Positions 6,055 to 15,345 of a stretch of DNA of 39,534 bases are shown here, in pieces. Position numbers and translations under genes: made by a program. A model generated the notes under the pieces. That model saw only the letters and a program-made list of their open reading frames with translations. It did not search any database and was not told the origin of the DNA. Source of the stretch: Candidatus Zixiibacteriota bacterium (GTDB lineage Bacteria > Zixibacteria > MSB-5A5 > GN15 > JAAZOE01). The stretch's first letter is position 1. The number at the start of each line of letters is the position of its first letter. The DNA lies in the NCBI GenBank assembly GCA_030668485.1, contig DAOUTW010000044.1, forward strand, positions 1 to 39,534. Reading direction: 5' to 3'.

Positions 6055-7509
6055 TCAGAATACATAATGGACAAAGCGAATCGAAAGGTAATATTGCGAG
6101 ACATCATATTCACTCTGAAAATACCTATATTCATTCCGGCGATCGTGTCGACTGACATCCAAATTTATTTGCAGCGTTGTCGGAATCGATATCCTGTATT
6201 CGAGGGTTGCTATCACATTGAAAAGCCCATATCGCTCATACGACTGGGTATCATGGTTTACATATATCTCGTGAAGACTGTATATATTATAGGACGTAGA
6301 CAAATGCATTGAAGTGCGCAGGTCAAAAAAGTACCGCAATAATACCGATATTGAGTAAGAGTAAAACTGCTCTTGTGTATTATACAGGTTTTCAGAGTAA
6401 TGTCTATCGCTTGGATAATAAGGAATTTGCATATGTTCCCGGTTGTAGAAAGCATTCAGATAGCGTCTGTACTCACTCACCAATTCCAGGTGCCAGCGAC
6501 TGGAAAGAGGCTTCGCGTATTGTGCGATGATTGTTAAATATGGCTGATGGTGCTTCTCTTTCGCGTACAAATAGGTATGCCGATAGTCTCCCTCGGGAGA
6601 TGTGGTTTCGTCAGTGGTTTGCTCGGTGGTGTGGAGATAATTGAATCCAAAACCGGCACGCAAACGCCAGCCAAAATATCTATGTTCATTCGGGAAGTAG
6701 TCCCACACATCCTGAATCAACAGATAACCATACGGCCCCGGATCTTTTATAATTCCGCGGTTGATTAATAATCCGATTATCTCCTGCAAAGCCGCAATTT
6801 TGTGAAGGCGTTCATCCGGCCTGTATGTAAGTCGATAGTATCGTACCTTGTCGGTCAGATTGTACAGCTCATCATAGTCGGCATTGTGGACAATCATTCC
6901 ATCCTTATCCAATTCCTTGATTATATTCAATGCCGTGGCGGCAAAACGGCCCTCATAAAACCGGCCCCATCCAGCCATTAATGCGCCATCCAAAACATAC
7001 TTACGATAATGGGTGTCAGGATTTACATCGTGCAGATTATGCCTGTATATCCATTGGACGAGGCCCTTAGCCGACAGAAAATAATCGTTATGTATATATG
7101 TCCCCGCATCAAATTTAACAAGTATGCCGGGATCAAGACCACTTGATTTGACATATACATTGTGAGGTTTGGCGTGTTTCAGACTGTATCCGGTAATCAG
7201 TGAACAAATCACAAATCTCGATATGGATTCATTTATGTAATCCACGTCGGAAGTAAATGCGATTAATTGAACGTCTTTTGTTTTTACAGTGACTTCAGAC
7301 GAATATTCATGCACATTATATTGCGTTTCTTCGCGGTGATCACCCTCCATTCTGATATTCCCGTCCACTCGCCACTGAAAGTCAACGAATTTTTCCGGGA
7401 TATAGCTCTCGATTCGGAATTTCGGTTCATCGGCGTGACACAAAGAATCAATACAAACGACCGCCAGAATAGCGAAGAGACATTTCACCAAATTGTTTTT
7501 TAGATTCAT
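6055..7509 (-). CDS. Outer-membrane beta-barrel protein, function unknown
   Basis: A 484-residue protein with a signal peptide (hydrophobic stretch about residues 8-22, cleavage likely after SLCHA). The C-terminal 200 residues show alternating hydrophobic and polar strands rich in Tyr and Phe, and the last residue is Phe after YLSIRFVHYVF, the usual targeting signal of outer-membrane barrels. A helical insert near residues 178-255, containing GWGRFYEGRFAATALNII and a helix with ALQEIIGLLIN, resembles a segment seen in some barrel proteins of the Bacteroidetes/FCB group (from memory). The gene is AT-richer than its neighbours and has hairpin repeats of matching wording on both sides, which suggests acquisition as a unit. 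No transport or enzymatic role can be assigned. It has no operon partner. Confidence 0.7.
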   Translation of the reverse strand: MNLKNNLVKCLFAILAVVCIDSLCHADEPKFRIESYIPEKFVDFQWRVDGNIRMEGDHREETQYNVHEYSSEVTVKTKDVQLIAFTSDVDYINESISRFVICSLITGYSLKHAKPHNVYVKSSGLDPGILVKFDAGTYIHNDYFLSAKGLVQWIYRHNLHDVNPDTHYRKYVLDGALMAGWGRFYEGRFAATALNIIKELDKDGMIVHNADYDELYNLTDKVRYYRLTYRPDERLHKIAALQEIIGLLINRGIIKDPGPYGYLLIQDVWDYFPNEHRYFGWRLRAGFGFNYLHTTEQTTDETTSPEGDYRHTYLYAKEKHHQPYLTIIAQYAKPLSSRWHLELVSEYRRYLNAFYNREHMQIPYYPSDRHYSENLYNTQEQFYSYSISVLLRYFFDLRTSMHLSTSYNIYSLHEIYVNHDTQSYERYGLFNVIATLEYRISIPTTLQINLDVSRHDRRNEYRYFQSEYDVSQYYLSIRFVHYVF

Positions 7510-7627: not shown

Positions 7628-7699
7628 GCATAATCATCAATTTATTCGGGGCATCCTCGCGACAGCCAAAAAGTAGCCCCTGCTACCTGTTTTTCCTCT

Positions 7700-7728
7700 T
7701 TGCCATAAGGCCAATAATGTCTTATAAT
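7700..7728 (+). promoter_or_regulatory. Promoter P1 in repeat copy 1
   Basis: TTGCCA (7700-7705), a 17-base spacer, and a perfect TATAAT (7723-7728). Transcripts from here would pass through the hairpin of the second repeat copy, so P1 output may be attenuated. Confidence 0.7.
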
Positions 7729-7790
7729 TGCCACCCTCCGGTCATCCTCGCGACAGCCAAAAAGTAGCCCCTGCTACCTGTTTTTCCTCT

Positions 7791-7819
7791 TTGCCATAAG
7801 GCCAAAAATAGCTTATAAT
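7791..7819 (+). promoter_or_regulatory. Promoter P2 in repeat copy 2, driving the signalling operon
   Basis: TTGCCA (7791-7796), a 17-base spacer and TATAAT (7814-7819). The predicted start point is near 7826, which rules out a GTG at 7825 as the start of the kinase-like gene and supports the ATG at 7894. The 68-base leader has a small hairpin, ACGCC-GATCGGT-GGCGT, near 7839-7855. Confidence 0.75.
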
Positions 7820-7893
7820 TTATTGTGGCTCATGATAAACGCCGATCGGTGGCGTCACCTTTGAAGACAGGGACCAGACACTTAAAAAACAGC

Positions 7894-8859
7894 ATGAGTG
7901 AAAAAGATCAGATTATCGAACGCGTCCGCGAATTGACCGGCTGGGAACAATACGATCAGCCGAAAATCGTTACCGATACCACCGACTGGATGAGAATCCA
8001 GCGCGGCAATATTCTTCGGATCGGCGGTAAGGACTTTGTTATCGAGGGAAACCGCTACGAAAACCGGTTCGGTATCGGCGATCAGCCGAAATACTGGGTA
8101 TTTTCCGCCATCGACCTCGAAGACGGCAAAAAGAAAATCGTCAAGATGGTATTCCTTGAGGAATTCCAGGTGCATATCGGCATTTTCAAAATTCGCTGTT
8201 TCCGCAGCCCGGAAAAAGAGGCCAAGGTACTCGACATGGTCAAGCATGATAAACGATTCATGCAGGGGTATACGGCGCGGGACGACAAGGGCAATCCGGT
8301 CCGGATCATCGACTATATCAAAGGACAGTCGCTGTTCGGGCATATTTATGGAATCGACAAACCTCATGAGCAATATTTCCATGAGAATTTGCCGCAGATT
8401 CTGCATAAAATTGTCGGATGCATGGAGGCGATTCAATTTCTGCACGATCGCGGTACCTGTCATGGCGATATTCGCAACGATCATATCATCATCGAGGCGG
8501 AGACCGGCCAGTATCGCTGGATCGATTTCGATCTGAACCAGCATGTGTCTGACTTTGATGTCTGGAGTATTGGCAATATTCTTAATTATGCCGCCGGCAA
8601 GGGAATCAATTCGTTCAAGATTGTAATGAAGAGCGACAAGTTTTCAGAGAGTCTGAAGCAAAGCCTGTCGGCAAGCGATGCCTCGGCATTTTATGAATAT
8701 CGGGTGATGAATATCAGGAAGCTTTACCCGTATATCCCTGAGAGTTTGAATAATATTTTGATGCATTTTGCCATTCACCCCCACGGCACCTATGGCACTA
8801 TCCGCGAACTGGTGGGTGATTTCCGCGAAATGCTGGAGAATAATTTTCCTTCGAGTTGA
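7894..8859 (+). CDS. Protein-kinase-fold protein of a signalling operon
   Basis: A 321-residue protein with a divergent eukaryotic-like kinase fold. Numbering from the ATG at 7894, an ATP-contacting lysine candidate is in KKKIVKMVF (about 84), the catalytic loop is HGDIRNDHI (about 190-198; Asp 192 as catalytic base) and the metal-binding motif is IDFDLN (about 210-215, DFD in place of DFG). The glycine-rich loop is not obvious, and CHGD replaces HRD, as in RIO, BUD32 and phosphotransferase-like kinases. The first 50 residues are unlike the kinase core. The start is inferred from the promoter position; its ribosome site is weak. It lies 31 bases before a Rossmann-histidine kinase gene, so a shared pathway is likely. 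The target is unknown. Confidence 0.75.
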   Translation: MSEKDQIIERVRELTGWEQYDQPKIVTDTTDWMRIQRGNILRIGGKDFVIEGNRYENRFGIGDQPKYWVFSAIDLEDGKKKIVKMVFLEEFQVHIGIFKIRCFRSPEKEAKVLDMVKHDKRFMQGYTARDDKGNPVRIIDYIKGQSLFGHIYGIDKPHEQYFHENLPQILHKIVGCMEAIQFLHDRGTCHGDIRNDHIIIEAETGQYRWIDFDLNQHVSDFDVWSIGNILNYAAGKGINSFKIVMKSDKFSESLKQSLSASDASAFYEYRVMNIRKLYPYIPESLNNILMHFAIHPHGTYGTIRELVGDFREMLENNFPSS

Positions 8860-8890: not shown

Positions 8891-10714
8891 ATGAAGACGG
8901 TTATCATCGGCGCAGGAAAAGGTTGCAAGGCGATCATCGAGCTGGCATCGGGGACTTTCCTCAAGGAATTGAAACTGGATATCAAATGCGTTGTCGATAT
9001 CGACAAAAACGCCCCCGGTATGGTTACCGCCCGCAAGATGAAATTGAAGACCAGCCCCGACATGGTCAAGGCGCTGTCGATTCCCAATATCGATCTGGTT
9101 ATCGAGTTGACCGGCAAGGACCACGTCCTTGAAAAGATATACAAAATTCTGCCGCCCGGAATGCGCCTGATCGATCATACTTTTGCACATATTTTCTGGG
9201 ACCTGGTTAACGCTCAGCAGGAACTGGAAGTGCGTCTGGACGAGATCACCACCTTGGAGGAAAAGGTCGAAAGGGAGCGTCGTTTCCTCCAGGCATCATT
9301 CGATACCATTCCCGATTTAATCGTGGTGCTGGGGCAGGACAAACGGATCCGGCGAGTGAATGCCAGCTTCAGCCGTGCTGCCGGAGTATCCGGGCAGACA
9401 GCTCGCGGGAAAAAATGCACCGACCTGCTGGAAAATACCGAACTGTCGATCGGATGCCGTGAATTGGCTCTGCTTGTCGACGAGGTCCTCGATACCGGCC
9501 TTCCGCGATCGGTTGTCTGGCAAACCGCGGTGCCCAAGGAAGCCTTCTGGGAGGTATCGTTCACCCCGATTCTCGATGAGAATCTGGAAATTGACGCGAT
9601 TGTCGTTACCTGGCACCGTATTACCGAAAAAGTCATGTTACGTCGTGAAATCGAAAGTGCCGAGCAAAAGTTCGAAAGATTTATCGATTCGGCTCATGAC
9701 TGGATTTCGATCAAGGATATTGACGGTCGCTACGTCATCGTTAATCCGGCATGCGCCCGATCTTTCAATCTCAAGCCGAAAGACTTTATCGGAAAATGTG
9801 TCGAGGAAATGTTGCCGACCAACCGTGCCGCCATGATCAGGATTCATGATGATGAGGCGATCCGCACCAATCAGCATCAAAAGTATGATGAAGTCTTTGA
9901 GATTGAGGGGCGCGAACAACATTATCAGACGGTTCGTTTTCCCCTTCATGATTACAAAGGAAATACCATCGGCGTATGCACTATCGCTCGCGATGTCTCC
10001 TCGGAAAAGGAACTGCATGAGCAACTGGTTCAGGCGGCTCGCCTGGCCGCCGTCGGCAAACTGGCCGCCGGAGTAGCCCATGAAATCAATAACCCCCTGA
10101 CCGGGGTGTTGGCTTATGCCGAGGACATCCTCGATGAATTATCGGAAGATGATCCGATGCGGGGCGATATTGCAGTCATTATCCGGGAAACGATCCGATG
10201 TCGGGATATTGTCCGCAACCTGCTCGACTTTGCGCGGCAGGAAAAACTTGAACTGGAGTTGACCAACCCCAACGACGTGATCGAGCATTCGCTTTCCCTG
10301 GTGCGACGTTTGCCGCAATTCAGAAATATCACTATCGAGGAAAACCTGGCCGAACGTCTACCCGATATCAAATGCGATGTTCATCAAATACAGCAGGTGA
10401 TTCTGAACCTGTTGATTAACGCCTCCGATGCGATGAATGAAAGCGGAACGATTGTTCTTTCGACGGAGTACGAACGTCAATACGGGCGGTGTGTCATTGC
10501 CGTCGCGGACAACGGCCCCGGTATTCCGGAAAACTTGATCGACCGGGTTTTCGAGCCGTTCTTCTCGACCAAAGGAACCAATGGTCTGGGGCTGGCGGTT
10601 AGCTGGGGCATCGTGGAACGTCATCGGGGTACCATGGAAGTTTATACAGCCGAAAAAGGCGGAGCTATTTTCAGGATAGTCCTGCCGGGCGTAAGCAAAA
10701 CGGAGAATTCCTAA
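8891..10714 (+). CDS. Histidine kinase with N-terminal Rossmann domain and two PAS domains
   Basis: A 607-residue soluble sensor kinase without membrane segments. Residues 1-105 form a dinucleotide-binding-like domain: VIIGAGKGCKAI near the start, an acidic VVDID after the second strand, and NIDLVIELTG, as in dihydrodipicolinate reductase or semialdehyde dehydrogenase folds. A coiled coil (about 106-137) leads to PAS domains at about 138-250 and 260-378. The HisKA box is VAHEINNPLTG with phospho-accepting His 397, the N box is NLLINASDAM (506-515), the G1 box DNGPGIP (540-546) and the G2 box NGLGLAV (564-570). Cytosolic redox or metabolite sensing through NAD(P) or a similar ligand is an inference. 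GGGAAGAAG precedes the ATG. The response regulator gene follows after 32 bases. Confidence 0.92.
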   Translation: MKTVIIGAGKGCKAIIELASGTFLKELKLDIKCVVDIDKNAPGMVTARKMKLKTSPDMVKALSIPNIDLVIELTGKDHVLEKIYKILPPGMRLIDHTFAHIFWDLVNAQQELEVRLDEITTLEEKVERERRFLQASFDTIPDLIVVLGQDKRIRRVNASFSRAAGVSGQTARGKKCTDLLENTELSIGCRELALLVDEVLDTGLPRSVVWQTAVPKEAFWEVSFTPILDENLEIDAIVVTWHRITEKVMLRREIESAEQKFERFIDSAHDWISIKDIDGRYVIVNPACARSFNLKPKDFIGKCVEEMLPTNRAAMIRIHDDEAIRTNQHQKYDEVFEIEGREQHYQTVRFPLHDYKGNTIGVCTIARDVSSEKELHEQLVQAARLAAVGKLAAGVAHEINNPLTGVLAYAEDILDELSEDDPMRGDIAVIIRETIRCRDIVRNLLDFARQEKLELELTNPNDVIEHSLSLVRRLPQFRNITIEENLAERLPDIKCDVHQIQQVILNLLINASDAMNESGTIVLSTEYERQYGRCVIAVADNGPGIPENLIDRVFEPFFSTKGTNGLGLAVSWGIVERHRGTMEVYTAEKGGAIFRIVLPGVSKTENS

Positions 10715-10746: not shown

Positions 10747-11529
10747 ATGGAACGCAGCCTCAATATATTAGTGGTCGACGACGAACAAGTGGTACTTGAC
10801 AGTATAAAAAAGCATCTCAAGAAGGACAATTATAACATACGCACTGCCCTGACCGCCAAAGACGGGTTGCAACTGTTTGATTCGGAAACGATGGATATTG
10901 TCCTGACCGACCTGATGATGCCAGAGATGGATGGTCTGGAATTTATGAAAGAGGTTAAGGATCGCCAGCCGCTGACGCCGGTAATCATGATCACCGGGTA
11001 TGCCACGATCAACACTGCCCTGCAGGCGACGGAATTGGGGGCCTTCGATTATATCGCCAAGCCGTTTACCAAGTCGGAACTGCGGGCCGTTTTACAGCGT
11101 GCCTGCGATATCGTCTCGAAATCGGAAGATGCCGTCGCCGACCCCAAAGCTGAAGTAACGGCCGGTCCCAAAGCGCCCCCAAAGGGATTGAAGACTCTCG
11201 GCGATTTCTCATGGATGATGGTGCAGAACGACGGCACGGTGCTGCTGGGGGTGGAGCGTTCGTTTTTGCTTACTATCGGGCAGATTCAAAACATATTTCT
11301 TCCCTCCGCCGGTGATAAAATTCGGCAGGGAAGTGTTTATCTTCAGTTTTTCTCCACCGATTTACGTTCGCATGCCGTGTTGTCGCCATTATCGGGCACA
11401 GTGGTTGAGGCCAATGAAAAGGTTTCGGAGACGCCCTCCTCGATTCTGGAGGACCCCTATGGTGAAGGCTGGCTGATCCGCCTAAAACCCTCCCGCCTCG
11501 AATTCGAACTCAAAGAGCTGGGGTTGTAG
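10747..11529 (+). CDS. Response regulator fused to a degenerate GcvH-like (lipoyl) domain
   Basis: A 260-residue protein. Residues 1-120 are a receiver domain with acidic pair DD at 11-12, phospho-acceptor Asp 55 in VLTDLMMP, Thr 83 and Lys 105. A proline/alanine linker (about 125-148) leads to residues 150-255, which follow the glycine cleavage H protein closely: LGVERSFLLTIGQIQNIFLP, then SPLSGTVVEANE (213-224) and EDPYGEGWLIRLKPS (235-249). By eye alignment on SPLSG, the lipoyl-bearing lysine of GcvH is replaced by leucine (about 206), and no lysine is nearby, so lipoylation is not expected. There is no DNA-binding domain. It is the natural partner of the preceding histidine kinase. GGGAG lies seven bases before the ATG. 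Confidence 0.9.
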   Translation: MERSLNILVVDDEQVVLDSIKKHLKKDNYNIRTALTAKDGLQLFDSETMDIVLTDLMMPEMDGLEFMKEVKDRQPLTPVIMITGYATINTALQATELGAFDYIAKPFTKSELRAVLQRACDIVSKSEDAVADPKAEVTAGPKAPPKGLKTLGDFSWMMVQNDGTVLLGVERSFLLTIGQIQNIFLPSAGDKIRQGSVYLQFFSTDLRSHAVLSPLSGTVVEANEKVSETPSSILEDPYGEGWLIRLKPSRLEFELKELGL

Positions 11530-11591: not shown

Positions 11592-12287
11592 CTACATTTT
11601 GAATATTAAATGATGGCATTCGAAATCTGAAGGATAAGTTTTTCCTTTGGGGACTTTTCTTATGTGTTTCGAAGTACGATGATCTCGTTTTGGAAAATCC
11701 GAATGATGATTTAAGGTCCATTTTCCTTTCTTAGCGATATTTTCGAATGCCTTATCGGGAATACCACTCAGCAAATAACCTAACATCGCAGCCGAACTCG
11801 AGAATGGTGCATATCTACAGGTTAAGTAGTTGTTTTTGATTTCTTTTATATACTCGGCAACCTCTCCATCCGTTTTTAGTATCTTTGCTTCTAATGGCCA
11901 CATCAATCGTTCACCACCATAACAAATAACCGCCAAATCATATTCCGGAGGCTGTGCCTGTGTTGATGCTGCTGTCTCGTATTCGTAACTTCCATGCTGA
12001 ATGAAAAACGGCATATCCTCATTCCAGCATTTTCGTATGCGTGGTTCTAGCAGTTGTGTTATATATCGTTCCGATTTTTTATCGTTTGGATCAATAGCAT
12101 TCGTTAATATCAGTTCTTTGAAAAATAGATCAAAGCCTTGCCATATGCTTTGAAGCATAAGCATTATTGCGTTAGATTGTAGCTTATGGGCTAATCTAAC
12201 GAAATCTGCTGTATGCGGCCATGCACTATCGGACAATGTCAATATCCGCCTATTGATGAATTTCTGATGCCTGTTTTGATGCTCCAA
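11592..12287 (-). CDS. Small PD-(D/E)XK-type nuclease candidate paired with a DNA methyltransferase
   Basis: A 231-residue protein that I do not recognise by name. A nuclease-like core is visible: EYDLAVICY (Asp 117) followed 15 residues later by PLEAKIL (Glu 133, Lys 135), the spacing of a PD-(D/E)XK active site. The N-terminal half is helical, and the C-terminus is rich in His, Lys and Arg. The longest frame starts at a TTG at 12287 and overlaps the methyltransferase by 38 bases; no good ribosome site precedes it. A TTG at 12242, after AGGCGG, would start just beyond the methyltransferase stop. The gene is AT-rich like its partner. A restriction or defence nuclease acting with the methyltransferase is the best inference. 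Confidence 0.6.
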   Translation of the reverse strand: MEHQNRHQKFINRRILTLSDSAWPHTADFVRLAHKLQSNAIMLMLQSIWQGFDLFFKELILTNAIDPNDKKSERYITQLLEPRIRKCWNEDMPFFIQHGSYEYETAASTQAQPPEYDLAVICYGGERLMWPLEAKILKTDGEVAEYIKEIKNNYLTCRYAPFSSSAAMLGYLLSGIPDKAFENIAKKGKWTLNHHSDFPKRDHRTSKHIRKVPKGKTYPSDFECHHLIFKM

Positions 12288-15200
12288 GCATTATATCTGC
12301 AGCCACCTCATCGGCGTCTCGCAATGCCACTGACCGTGTCCAATATCGGACTTTATCCGGTTTTATGAGATAAATAGTCGGTGTTTTTTGACCATCAACC
12401 AAATTTGTACTGTAGGTTCTCGAAATTCGCTGATAGAATATATTTTGACTAGGATCGCCCGTTCTCTTAAGTATTTTCTCATTAATTTCTTCAAGCTTTG
12501 ACATCAACTCTGTCGACTGGATAGGTTCAATATTTATTTTCTTTCGAGTGGGGGGATCAAGATGGAAAGCAATCATACGCAATGGCAATGGTGGGTCGCA
12601 TTTATCCTGAAATATCGTCGCGCTAATCTGCGCTTTTTCACCAAAGCCCGCCTTCAAAACACGCATAAAATAGTCGCAATAACTGCCAAGCTCAGGCTCA
12701 TTTTCTCTGGTTGTAATCATGCGGCCAGGTGAGTTTTCACCACCCTTAAAATCCGCCAAAGTATAGTTTATGAAATCTTGAATAATGGCCCATTCCACTT
12801 CAGTAAAGCCATAAGCTTTCCGTGCGCATTCATCTAAATCATTGAACGATCTTATACCTTTTAGTATTCCCGGTTCGACATCAGGAAGAGGTGTATCTAA
12901 TAGGCCCTTAACTGTGAGTTCAGGGCGATAGCCAGCTACACGACCATTTGTGAGAAAAAGGAAATACGTTGCCACGATGCTGTTATAAGCCAAAATAACA
13001 GAATCTATGAGATGCTTCGATGACTCTTCGAAGCGCACAGTAACTAACCTTTTGTAGCAGATTGCACCACGTCCTGCTTTATCTGCAGATACACGCACTG
13101 CTCTAAATCGACCTGATCTCTTCTTATACGATTGTCTAATAACAACTTGAGGTGGGTCAAAAGCGGTAAATGTAGTTGAATCCTTTTTATATGTTTTTGG
13201 ATCATTGATAATAACGAGCTTGTCTGCAATAACATTAAGACAAAAGTCATCTGGCAATGCATCCAAAGAATGCCTTCCTCTAATAATTTCCTGTACTTTA
13301 TGGGGGCGGGTTAAATCGATTCCACGACGTTCAAATATCCTTCCATCCTTTTTCAATTTAGCGAGACTTGAAAACTCAGAAAGCTTACGAACTAAAACAC
13401 TATCGCGTCTACCACCCCACATAAATGTAGTCCAAACACGTGAATTCTTTGCCGCCTCAATGGCATGTATCAGATTGGTATCATATTGCTCAAGTACTAT
13501 TCTATATTCATCCTCATGACTTTGGATTGGCTTTGGGAATGAATAGACAAGAGGCTGATTATCAGGTCTACTTTGTCGCATAAAAATAATGCAGGGAGGA
13601 GATATTGCCTTATCGAATATTTTATGGCGTAACGCCGAAAGATTAATAATTTCATCCACTTTATACTCTGTATAAAGTCTTTTACGAAATCTTTGATTAT
13701 TCTCATCATAAAGCAAGCCTCCAGCGGGCTGGATCATTGCTACTAGACCACCGTTCCTCAGATTCTCGGCCGCAAGCGCCAAAAATAATGGCCCTATATT
13801 CCTATTATAGGATGGCCATCCTTCCGCTCTCGCCCAATTTTCTGCAGGACACGTTATTGAGTCATATCCCCATGGGGCATTACCTATAACATAATCATAT
13901 TTCTTATTGTTATTACATGCAAAGGAATCACTTTCTATTAGCGATTTTCCTCGAAGTCTTGGAAATTTAACTTTACTCCAGTAATGTTTGGGGTCAATTT
14001 CATCACACATTGTCAAGTAAAGGCTAAATGATGCAACTCTCACAGCATGTGAATCAATATCTATTCCAAAAATATTGTTTACCAATAATTTCCTGAGTAC
14101 ATCGACATTTATATCTTCATTCTCGGAGTCTTGATTAGCCAGCTTCCAGCGGTGTATTAATCGTTGATATGCTTTAACAAGGAAAATACCGGAACCGCAC
14201 GCGGGGTCCAGTATTTTAACATCCCATTCTTTACAATCCCATGGTAACACCTTGTCGAGCATCATATCAACGATATGGCCAGGTGTATACACAACCCCCG
14301 GACTTTCAGTCAACTCATTTTTGGTTTTTTTGGTTTTTCTAACAAACACCTCATAAACACTACTTATAAACTCTAATGGTATTGCATCAAATGAATAATG
14401 TCGCCATAGACTCAATTGCCCATCGTCCATGGTCATTCTTCCGCCGACGAAATCCGCCAGTAAAGAGAGATGAGAAGCCCTAACCTGTTGTCTTTCGCTT
14501 ATCAGGTTACTATTAGTATCGCCGTTTTTATCGGATTCACTTCGGAACAGATCACCATTGAACTTCTCATTCAATAACGCAAATAGATTATAAGTATCTC
14601 TTTTACTTGTTAATATTGTTTCCAGGTCAGTGTATTTTTGGGATAAGTGACCTTGATCACAGAGTTGACGCAATTTCCGCTCATTCAGAGCGGAATTGCC
14701 ATCAGAATCTTTTCTGTGAAATAAATATTGGATGAAGATTATACGGGCTAAGAGATCGTGAATTACATCAAACTGTAATCCCTCATCATGTAGTCTTTTA
14801 CGTACTGATTTTAGATTGCTGAGCAACCTGCGGTCGGCGCATCCTTCACGCTTAAAACGCTTATGGTGCTCCATCAGTGGTCGCCCGGATATTAGCTCAA
14901 TCCAATTCAATGCATGGATAGCCTGTTGTTCAGTCGAAGAAAAATCAAATCTAAATTGCTGAATTTCTCGATCATAAATGTCGTCTGTTGGTGGTTCGCA
15001 ACAGGTCCAGGCACGAATTTGATTAGGTTCTAGTATTAAAAGTAGTGGTGTAGAACTGAGATTCCATGCAAGCCGGTGAATATGCTCGATAATATTTTGA
15101 GATACAGGCCGGGGAAATTCACACACTATTGCAATAGGCGACTCTGTGTTTTCTGAATTTGGATCTCTTGATAGAATTCCAATTTGCGCCCCATCCTGCC

Positions 15201-15345
15201 CTGATTCAAGTCTTAAATAATTGCCTATTTTTCGCCGAATCAACTCTGCCTGGATTTTTGAGCCTGATCCTGATGGATTAAGAATATCGGCGGACTTTGG
15301 CCATAATAAAAGCTTGCTAGCCTTATCGAGCATTGCGTTAGACAT
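12250..15345 (-). CDS. Large N6-adenine DNA methyltransferase (Eco57I/PglX-like)
   Basis: A 1031-residue protein. Residues 1-130 resemble the N-terminal nuclease-like region of type IIG enzymes, but the expected E-x-K is not present (AIVCEFPRP), so it is probably inactive. A helical region follows to about 340. The methyltransferase core has YTPGHIVDMML (353-363), SAM-binding motif I DPACGSGIFLVKAY (380-393), GIDIDSHAVR (427-436), and catalytic motif IV NAPW at 489-492, where NPPY/F/W is usual. Residues about 620-1000 would hold the target-recognition part. There is no helicase domain. It is AT-rich against flanking housekeeping genes, and lies between the signalling operon and hprK with its nuclease partner overlapping downstream, which suggests horizontal acquisition. 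The ATG at 15345 has AGAAGG very close; the ATG at 15333 is an alternative. Confidence 0.85.
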   Translation of the reverse strand: MSNAMLDKASKLLLWPKSADILNPSGSGSKIQAELIRRKIGNYLRLESGQDGAQIGILSRDPNSENTESPIAIVCEFPRPVSQNIIEHIHRLAWNLSSTPLLLILEPNQIRAWTCCEPPTDDIYDREIQQFRFDFSSTEQQAIHALNWIELISGRPLMEHHKRFKREGCADRRLLSNLKSVRKRLHDEGLQFDVIHDLLARIIFIQYLFHRKDSDGNSALNERKLRQLCDQGHLSQKYTDLETILTSKRDTYNLFALLNEKFNGDLFRSESDKNGDTNSNLISERQQVRASHLSLLADFVGGRMTMDDGQLSLWRHYSFDAIPLEFISSVYEVFVRKTKKTKNELTESPGVVYTPGHIVDMMLDKVLPWDCKEWDVKILDPACGSGIFLVKAYQRLIHRWKLANQDSENEDINVDVLRKLLVNNIFGIDIDSHAVRVASFSLYLTMCDEIDPKHYWSKVKFPRLRGKSLIESDSFACNNNKKYDYVIGNAPWGYDSITCPAENWARAEGWPSYNRNIGPLFLALAAENLRNGGLVAMIQPAGGLLYDENNQRFRKRLYTEYKVDEIINLSALRHKIFDKAISPPCIIFMRQSRPDNQPLVYSFPKPIQSHEDEYRIVLEQYDTNLIHAIEAAKNSRVWTTFMWGGRRDSVLVRKLSEFSSLAKLKKDGRIFERRGIDLTRPHKVQEIIRGRHSLDALPDDFCLNVIADKLVIINDPKTYKKDSTTFTAFDPPQVVIRQSYKKRSGRFRAVRVSADKAGRGAICYKRLVTVRFEESSKHLIDSVILAYNSIVATYFLFLTNGRVAGYRPELTVKGLLDTPLPDVEPGILKGIRSFNDLDECARKAYGFTEVEWAIIQDFINYTLADFKGGENSPGRMITTRENEPELGSYCDYFMRVLKAGFGEKAQISATIFQDKCDPPLPLRMIAFHLDPPTRKKINIEPIQSTELMSKLEEINEKILKRTGDPSQNIFYQRISRTYSTNLVDGQKTPTIYLIKPDKVRYWTRSVALRDADEVAADIMLGASKQASEIHQ

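Follow-up and report, generated by a model that had tools for sequence, protein, structure and literature searches.

The gene at 10747..11529 (+) of the window, the whole stretch of 39,534 nucleotides analyzed here, encodes a two-component response regulator of 260 aa whose output domain has the fold of the glycine cleavage H protein (GcvH) and lacks the lipoyl lysine. The regulator is the third gene of a closely spaced, co-directional unit together with a Ser/Thr kinase (STK) and a histidine kinase (HK). Computation established the domain architecture and fold of the regulator, the loss of its lysine and the conservation of the unit, and showed that each of the three proteins retains its catalytic residues. 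With confidence and doubt about evenly balanced, we interpret the unit as a redox-responsive two-component system in which the output would be a phospho-gated, cofactor-free protein-docking domain, with the Ser/Thr kinase of the same operon as its likeliest partner. The fuller reading, according to which a histidine kinase that reads NAD(H) controls the Ser/Thr kinase through the cofactor-less regulator and the operon forms one branch of a wider, as yet undescribed redox-linked class of lysine-less H regulators that spans several phyla, is put forward tentatively. The original prediction from the DNA alone had recognized the H-protein-like fold, the receiver and the loss of the lysine, all of which held, but it also proposed a mimic, whereas nothing points to mimicry of the glycine cleavage system, and it missed the operon with its Ser/Thr kinase and NAD-type histidine kinase.

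Domain architecture and fold of the regulator

The regulator, delimited by its ORF, Pfam, an AlphaFold2 model and Foldseek, consists of a receiver (REC) domain at aa 7-116 (10765..11094, +; Pfam Response_reg, E 7e-32) and a GcvH-like barrel-sandwich output domain without lipoyl lysine at aa 154-252 (11206..11502, +), which was assigned by fold and profile as well as by Pfam GCV_H (E 4.5e-17, 62.5 bits, cut-off 22.2). The REC pocket comprises the acidic residues D11/D12, the phospho-acceptor D55, T83 and K105; D11, D12, D55 and K105 were invariant in the cross-phylum alignment of 28 regulators and T83 was retained in at least 90%. Since 28/28 aligned members matched both Response_reg and GCV_H, this architecture is not due to chance. 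A DNA-binding family was not found in the regulator with Pfam, and the NCBIfam matches shown were confined to the receiver, with no DNA-binding output, in agreement with the earlier claim that the protein has no DNA-binding part. By every testable feature it is a two-component response regulator, for which phosphotransfer from the histidine kinase is predicted.

The AlphaFold2 model had a mean pLDDT of 88.6 and a disordered linker at residues 131-141, while the pTM of 0.54 means that the model does not reliably define how the REC and H domains are oriented to one another. In Foldseek searches the model resembled PDB receiver domains as well as solved H-proteins, including those of T. thermophilus (1onl; E 5e-11, TMt 0.78, rmsd 2.0 A) and E. 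coli (3a8j; TMt 0.80, rmsd 1.7 A). The structure prediction that had been proposed as a check thus contained an H-protein fold, with a TM of about 0.8 and an rmsd of about 1.7-2.0 A. The profile of the H domain matched 14 distinct PDB sequences, every one of them an H-protein.

Loss of the lipoyl lysine and conservation of a new hairpin

The former lipoyl hairpin was located by alignments and conservation at aa 203-209 (STDLRSH; 11353..11373, +), surrounded by the sequence RQGSVYLQFFSTDLRSHAVLSPLSG, and exceeds the hairpin of true H-proteins by one residue. Two registers were obtained for the position of the lipoyl lysine. Leucine, as originally named, occupies it when the residues are counted back from the shared PLSG motif at Pro214 (Leu206), whereas the HMM profile alignment to solved H-proteins places Asp205 there. 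No lysine is present at residues 192-224, on or near the hairpin, which rules out a lipoyl lysine in another register and bears out the claim that it was lost with none nearby.

In an alignment of 27 members, 25 from the Zixibacteria phylum and two from Kapabacteria, the lipoyl lysine was absent throughout, so that the loss extends across the regulator family. Asp205 was conserved in 27/27 sequences, and His209 and Ser203 in 25/27 each. The position of His209 is occupied by Gln in Kapabacteria and by Phe in Abyssobacteria, while 17 of 26 more distant receiver+H proteins have His at this place. The Glu three residues before the lipoyl lysine serves in ligase recognition; it was present in 5/6 true GcvH rows versus Ser or Phe in the regulator family. 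Because both the lysine and this Glu are missing while Asp205, His209 and Ser203 are kept, the aligned sequences indicate a family-wide lysine loss with a conserved new hairpin, i.e. a conserved trait and not decay. The invariant Asp and near-invariant His further argue that the hairpin tip is under selection even though the cofactor is gone.

One Abyssobacteria member (L004) carries a lysine at the equivalent hairpin place (SKM). Its two nearest relatives have Asn instead (NANM in L175/L223 and GSNM in L176/L224), and the lysine therefore does not mark a lipoyl site that is conserved. A further three distant receiver+H rows were dismissed as candidates, as their lysine lies one place earlier (SKE, SKD), off the lipoyl position; these lysines were not fixed among neighbours in the tree. 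Elsewhere in the genome, on a different contig, gcvPA and gcvPB adjoin an intact gcvH whose product has kept its lysine (EAVKAVS).

The histidine kinase and the Ser/Thr kinase

The histidine kinase (607 aa; 8891..10714, +) contains an N-terminal Rossmann domain followed by two PAS domains, HisKA and HATPase_c, the last two intact according to Pfam. Its gene ends about 30 bp upstream of the regulator, this neighbour is conserved among relatives, and by position it is the cognate kinase of the regulator. The N-terminal stretch had no Pfam match. Alignment, AlphaFold2 and Foldseek assigned an NAD(P)-type Rossmann input domain to approximately aa 1-105 (8891..9205, +), the model of which (pLDDT 86.4) was most similar to NAD(P)-dependent dehydrogenases, with acetaldehyde dehydrogenase subunits at E 1e-4; the redox sensor Rex appeared lower in the Foldseek list. 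The domain exhibits the alternating alpha/beta fold, the glycine-rich loop and the acidic end of strand 2, with G7 and G9 of the loop and D36 at the strand end invariant in the histidine kinase alignment. Based on the dehydrogenase-like model and these invariant residues, NAD(P)(H) is most likely the ligand.

The first gene encodes a Hanks-type Ser/Thr kinase-like protein of 321 aa (7894..8859, +; Pfam Pkinase, E 4e-9). A GTG start at 7825 is possible, but ATG 7894 agrees better with the promoter match and with most relatives. Among 17 aligned kinase sequences, the relatives being 45-67% identical, K84, E109, D192 and D211 as well as most of the HGDIRNDHI loop (190-198) were invariant. D192 in this loop is the catalytic Asp and D211 the metal-binding Asp, while K84 and E109 were assigned by position, not structure, as the Lys of strand 3 and the Glu of helix C. 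Judging from the invariance of these four residues, the kinase is probably active. An anti-phage role was discarded, the PADLOC matches being weak generic kinase ones.

Among 297 genomes from the phylum of Geobacter, 48 contained the kinase family, and most of these lacked the regulator. In 18/18 such loci read from this phylum (L242-L259) a universal stress protein (Usp) gene adjoined the kinase on the same strand, so that members of the family recur beside signalling or stress proteins, in the present operon beside the histidine kinase and the regulator. One of these loci (L243) has a kinase form of roughly 660 aa.

Conservation of the three-gene unit within the phylum

Of 132 genomes of the phylum, 27 contained the regulator (strong matches), 26 the kinase and 25 both, a co-occurrence with a Fisher p of 1.5e-23, the significance of which is inflated by relatedness. 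Two of the three mismatches, G061 (L121) and G113 (L166), are contig ends. The remaining genome (G114) is a real exception with a regulator and no kinase, showing that the HK-RR pair can exist without it, while in G082 the kinase was found in the expected place. Nearly every contig of sufficient length preserves the order STK-HK-RR, and the pairing of regulator and kinase is obligate-looking. H-domain genes of some kind were present in 122/132 genomes.

Further lysine-less H-like proteins, these with N-terminal membrane anchors, were encountered in relatives within the phylum (L158-L165). Some of them are fused to ferredoxin-like or cysteine-rich parts, and at several such loci (e.g. L158) the gene lies in an operon with NrfD, Fe-S proteins and multiheme cytochromes.

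Relatives in other phyla

One Kapabacteria genome (L003) has the complete unit at a single locus, whereas a second (G619) encodes the regulator and the kinase on separate contigs. All three genes also occur in a genome from the phylum of Geobacter (G143/L241), with the kinase convergent with the HK-RR pair. The regulator was present in 3/3 Abyssobacteria genomes, in which the STK-HK-RR unit includes a histidine kinase of the heme type (CxxCH); at two of these loci an NrfD gene or NrfD-like frame is located nearby. The input domains of the histidine kinase are of a redox type in every version, Rossmann/NAD here and CxxCH heme-type elsewhere.

Among 197 genomes sampled from the Kapabacteria class, about two dozen further ones contained frames of receiver+H length. 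All 12 frames that were read had the receiver and no lipoyl lysine, and the kinase family of the operon was found in none of these further genomes. The conserved operon in this class encodes an Fe-S protein, NrfD, a class III cytochrome c, a heme-type histidine kinase, an RR-GcvH regulator and a membrane-anchored REC-GcvH protein. The latter represents a second regulator type of about 385 aa (membrane anchor, REC and lysine-less H domain), which follows the small RR-GcvH in the redox operon (L200, L201, L203, L204, L211-L218 and others).

The original prediction had called this output type rare, which has to be qualified, since lysine-less receiver+H proteins recur in several phyla. Few genomes from the phylum of Geobacter and, at a strict cut-off, 1/247 from the phylum of an Acidobacteria genome carried a receiver+H regulator. 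In a tree of H domains, those fused to receivers were placed apart from true GcvH, although the alignment offered few columns and many forks were unresolved. Among the best-scoring relatives of the regulator H domain without a receiver were stand-alone H-like proteins of 145 aa with an invariant hairpin, QSRKWIGKL (L181, L182, L186, L187, L189 and L196), which have a lysine at the lipoyl position but Gln in place of the Glu at -3. Spread of the regulator by plasmids was rejected, as the matches listed were ordinary gcvH or weak, unannotated ones of 28-36% identity.

Flanking DNA

Just upstream of the operon lies a 91-bp tandem duplication (7652..7820, +) with copies 96% identical, each of which contains a predicted sigma70-like promoter with an 11/12 consensus match (TTGCCA-17-TATAAT). 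The first 36-38 bp of the duplication recur, as a dispersed repeat without an Rfam match, at about 42 further sites of the genome. An RNA element upstream of the operon was ruled out, since there was no Rfam match. Farther upstream, 6055-7509 on the minus strand encodes a protein of 484 aa that appears to begin with a signal peptide; it matched neither Pfam nor NCBIfam, and a relative was seen only at L114 among the loci compared.

The region directly downstream of the regulator is probably an acquired island. It includes a minus-strand ORF of 231 aa (11592-12287), which by eye has the look of a PD-(D/E)xK nuclease and had no Pfam or PADLOC match, as well as a restriction-modification gene of low GC (0.40) on the same strand (12250-15345) resembling type IIG enzymes.

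Proposed mechanism and alternative explanations

For the ligand, the phospho-gating, the docking and the identity of the partner we infer the following sequence of events. The N-terminal Rossmann domain of the histidine kinase would sense a redox signal in the cytoplasm, for which NAD(P)(H) is the likeliest candidate, the two PAS domains would supply further cues, and the kinase would phosphorylate Asp55 of the regulator. This may free or order the C-terminal H-protein-like barrel, in which the former lipoyl hairpin (S-x-D-[LM]-R-S-H), on the face that presents lipoate in H-proteins, would form part of a docking surface. Once docked, the H-like domain would change the activity of its partner, most likely the Ser/Thr kinase of the operon: the regulator may switch this kinase on or off, or the kinase may phosphorylate the regulator. 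The resulting cascade would run from histidine kinase to regulator to Ser/Thr kinase. We favour it because the regulator has no other output, the hairpin tip is conserved, the kinase is its regular companion and the inputs are of a redox type throughout. The fold, the missing lysine and the lack of a DNA-binding domain likewise support the earlier view that the output serves for binding and does not act as a carrier.

The partner may nevertheless differ or lie elsewhere, since other RR-GcvH lineages are accompanied by NrfD, Fe-S and cytochrome genes and have no such kinase. The H-like domain could dock on and tune a membrane electron-transfer complex (NrfD-type quinol subunit, Fe-S protein, multiheme cytochrome) with the kinase merely co-regulated, an explanation that we regard as unlikely but the most serious of the alternatives. 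The conserved Kapabacteria-class operons, the lysine-less membrane-anchored H-like proteins that accompany the same kind of complex and the NrfD genes beside the unit in Abyssobacteria all speak for it, but no NrfD, Fe-S or cytochrome gene was recognized in the operon of the window, and the constant neighbour of the Zixibacteria orthologues is the kinase and none of these three. For a ligand or metal sensor, in which the barrel would bind a small ligand or metal via Asp205 and His209 and the regulator would integrate phosphorylation with a second signal, the conservation of both residues at the hairpin tip and the recurrence of the His in distant receiver+H proteins can be cited; given that an Asp and a His by themselves bind metals weakly and that the His is exchanged for Gln or Phe in Kapabacteria and Abyssobacteria, we consider such a role improbable.

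Similarly doubtful is a decoy function corresponding to the mimic originally proposed, whereby the phosphorylated domain would occupy the P-, T- or L-protein or lipoate ligase and thereby throttle glycine cleavage. The shared fold is compatible with it and intact gcvH, gcvPA and gcvPB in the genome offer possible targets, but none of the loci read had a gcv gene beside the regulator, the Glu at -3 is lost, the hairpin is one residue longer, and H-domain genes are far more widespread in the phylum than the regulator (122 versus 27 of the 132 genomes). That the C-terminal domain is just a degenerate remnant, leaving the receiver to act alone like a stand-alone CheY-type regulator, would account for the lost cofactor site, yet it is very improbable in view of the strong conservation of core and hairpin residues in 27 sequences and the GCV_H match retained by all members.

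The docking cascade is of interest because the effect of a two-component system is set by its output domain, and for this entire class of output domains the fold is known, in contrast to the partner. The module joins a probable NAD(H) sensor, a regulator made from a repurposed carrier and a eukaryote-style kinase, and it recurs across phyla. That many related bacteria encode a lysine-less H regulator alongside both a sensor kinase and a eukaryote-style kinase suggests the reuse of a metabolic fold as a signalling part; if true, a metabolic swinging-arm domain has been turned into a phospho-gated docking module. The module yields a concrete prediction as to which protein the H-like domain binds. 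Such regulators should not be annotated as glycine cleavage H protein.

Comparison with known systems

A search of the open-access literature turned up no description of receiver+GcvH proteins, an earlier mention in output-domain reviews being possible, and a survey of archaeal output domains does not mention an H-protein barrel as output (PMC5847659). As the pairing is visible to Pfam, the combination is probably already in databases, even if undescribed. The regulator resembles response regulators with a protein-binding output in its conserved REC pocket, the adjacent histidine kinase and the lack of a DNA-binding domain, and differs from them in that its output is an H-protein barrel. Assignment to the DNA-binding response regulators of the OmpR, NarL or NtrC types was excluded by the absence of any such Pfam domain. 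The catalytic loop of the operon kinase reads HGDxRNDHI in contrast to HRDxKxxN of Hanks-type Ser/Thr kinases, and it is paired with a histidine kinase and RR-GcvH whereas its relatives from the phylum of Geobacter are paired with Usp.

The LbpA proteins of sHdr sulfur oxidation are relatives of GcvH outside the glycine cleavage system with a changed role, in which the lysine is strictly conserved; most carry two extra cysteines, and they occur in the context of hdr-like clusters (PMC6067878). Like LbpA, the regulator is a relative of GcvH that stands outside the glycine cleavage system and has a changed role. Membership in this group was ruled out, as the regulator lacks the lysine at this site as well as any cysteine in its H domain; no hdr genes were recognized in the window. 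With GcvH itself (PF01597) the H domain has in common the fold, the PLSG and DPYGxGW motifs and the profile similarity. It differs in its fusion to a receiver, the missing lipoyl lysine and Glu at -3, the longer hairpin and a location away from gcvP/gcvT, and despite its H-protein fold the regulator is not a functional GcvH.
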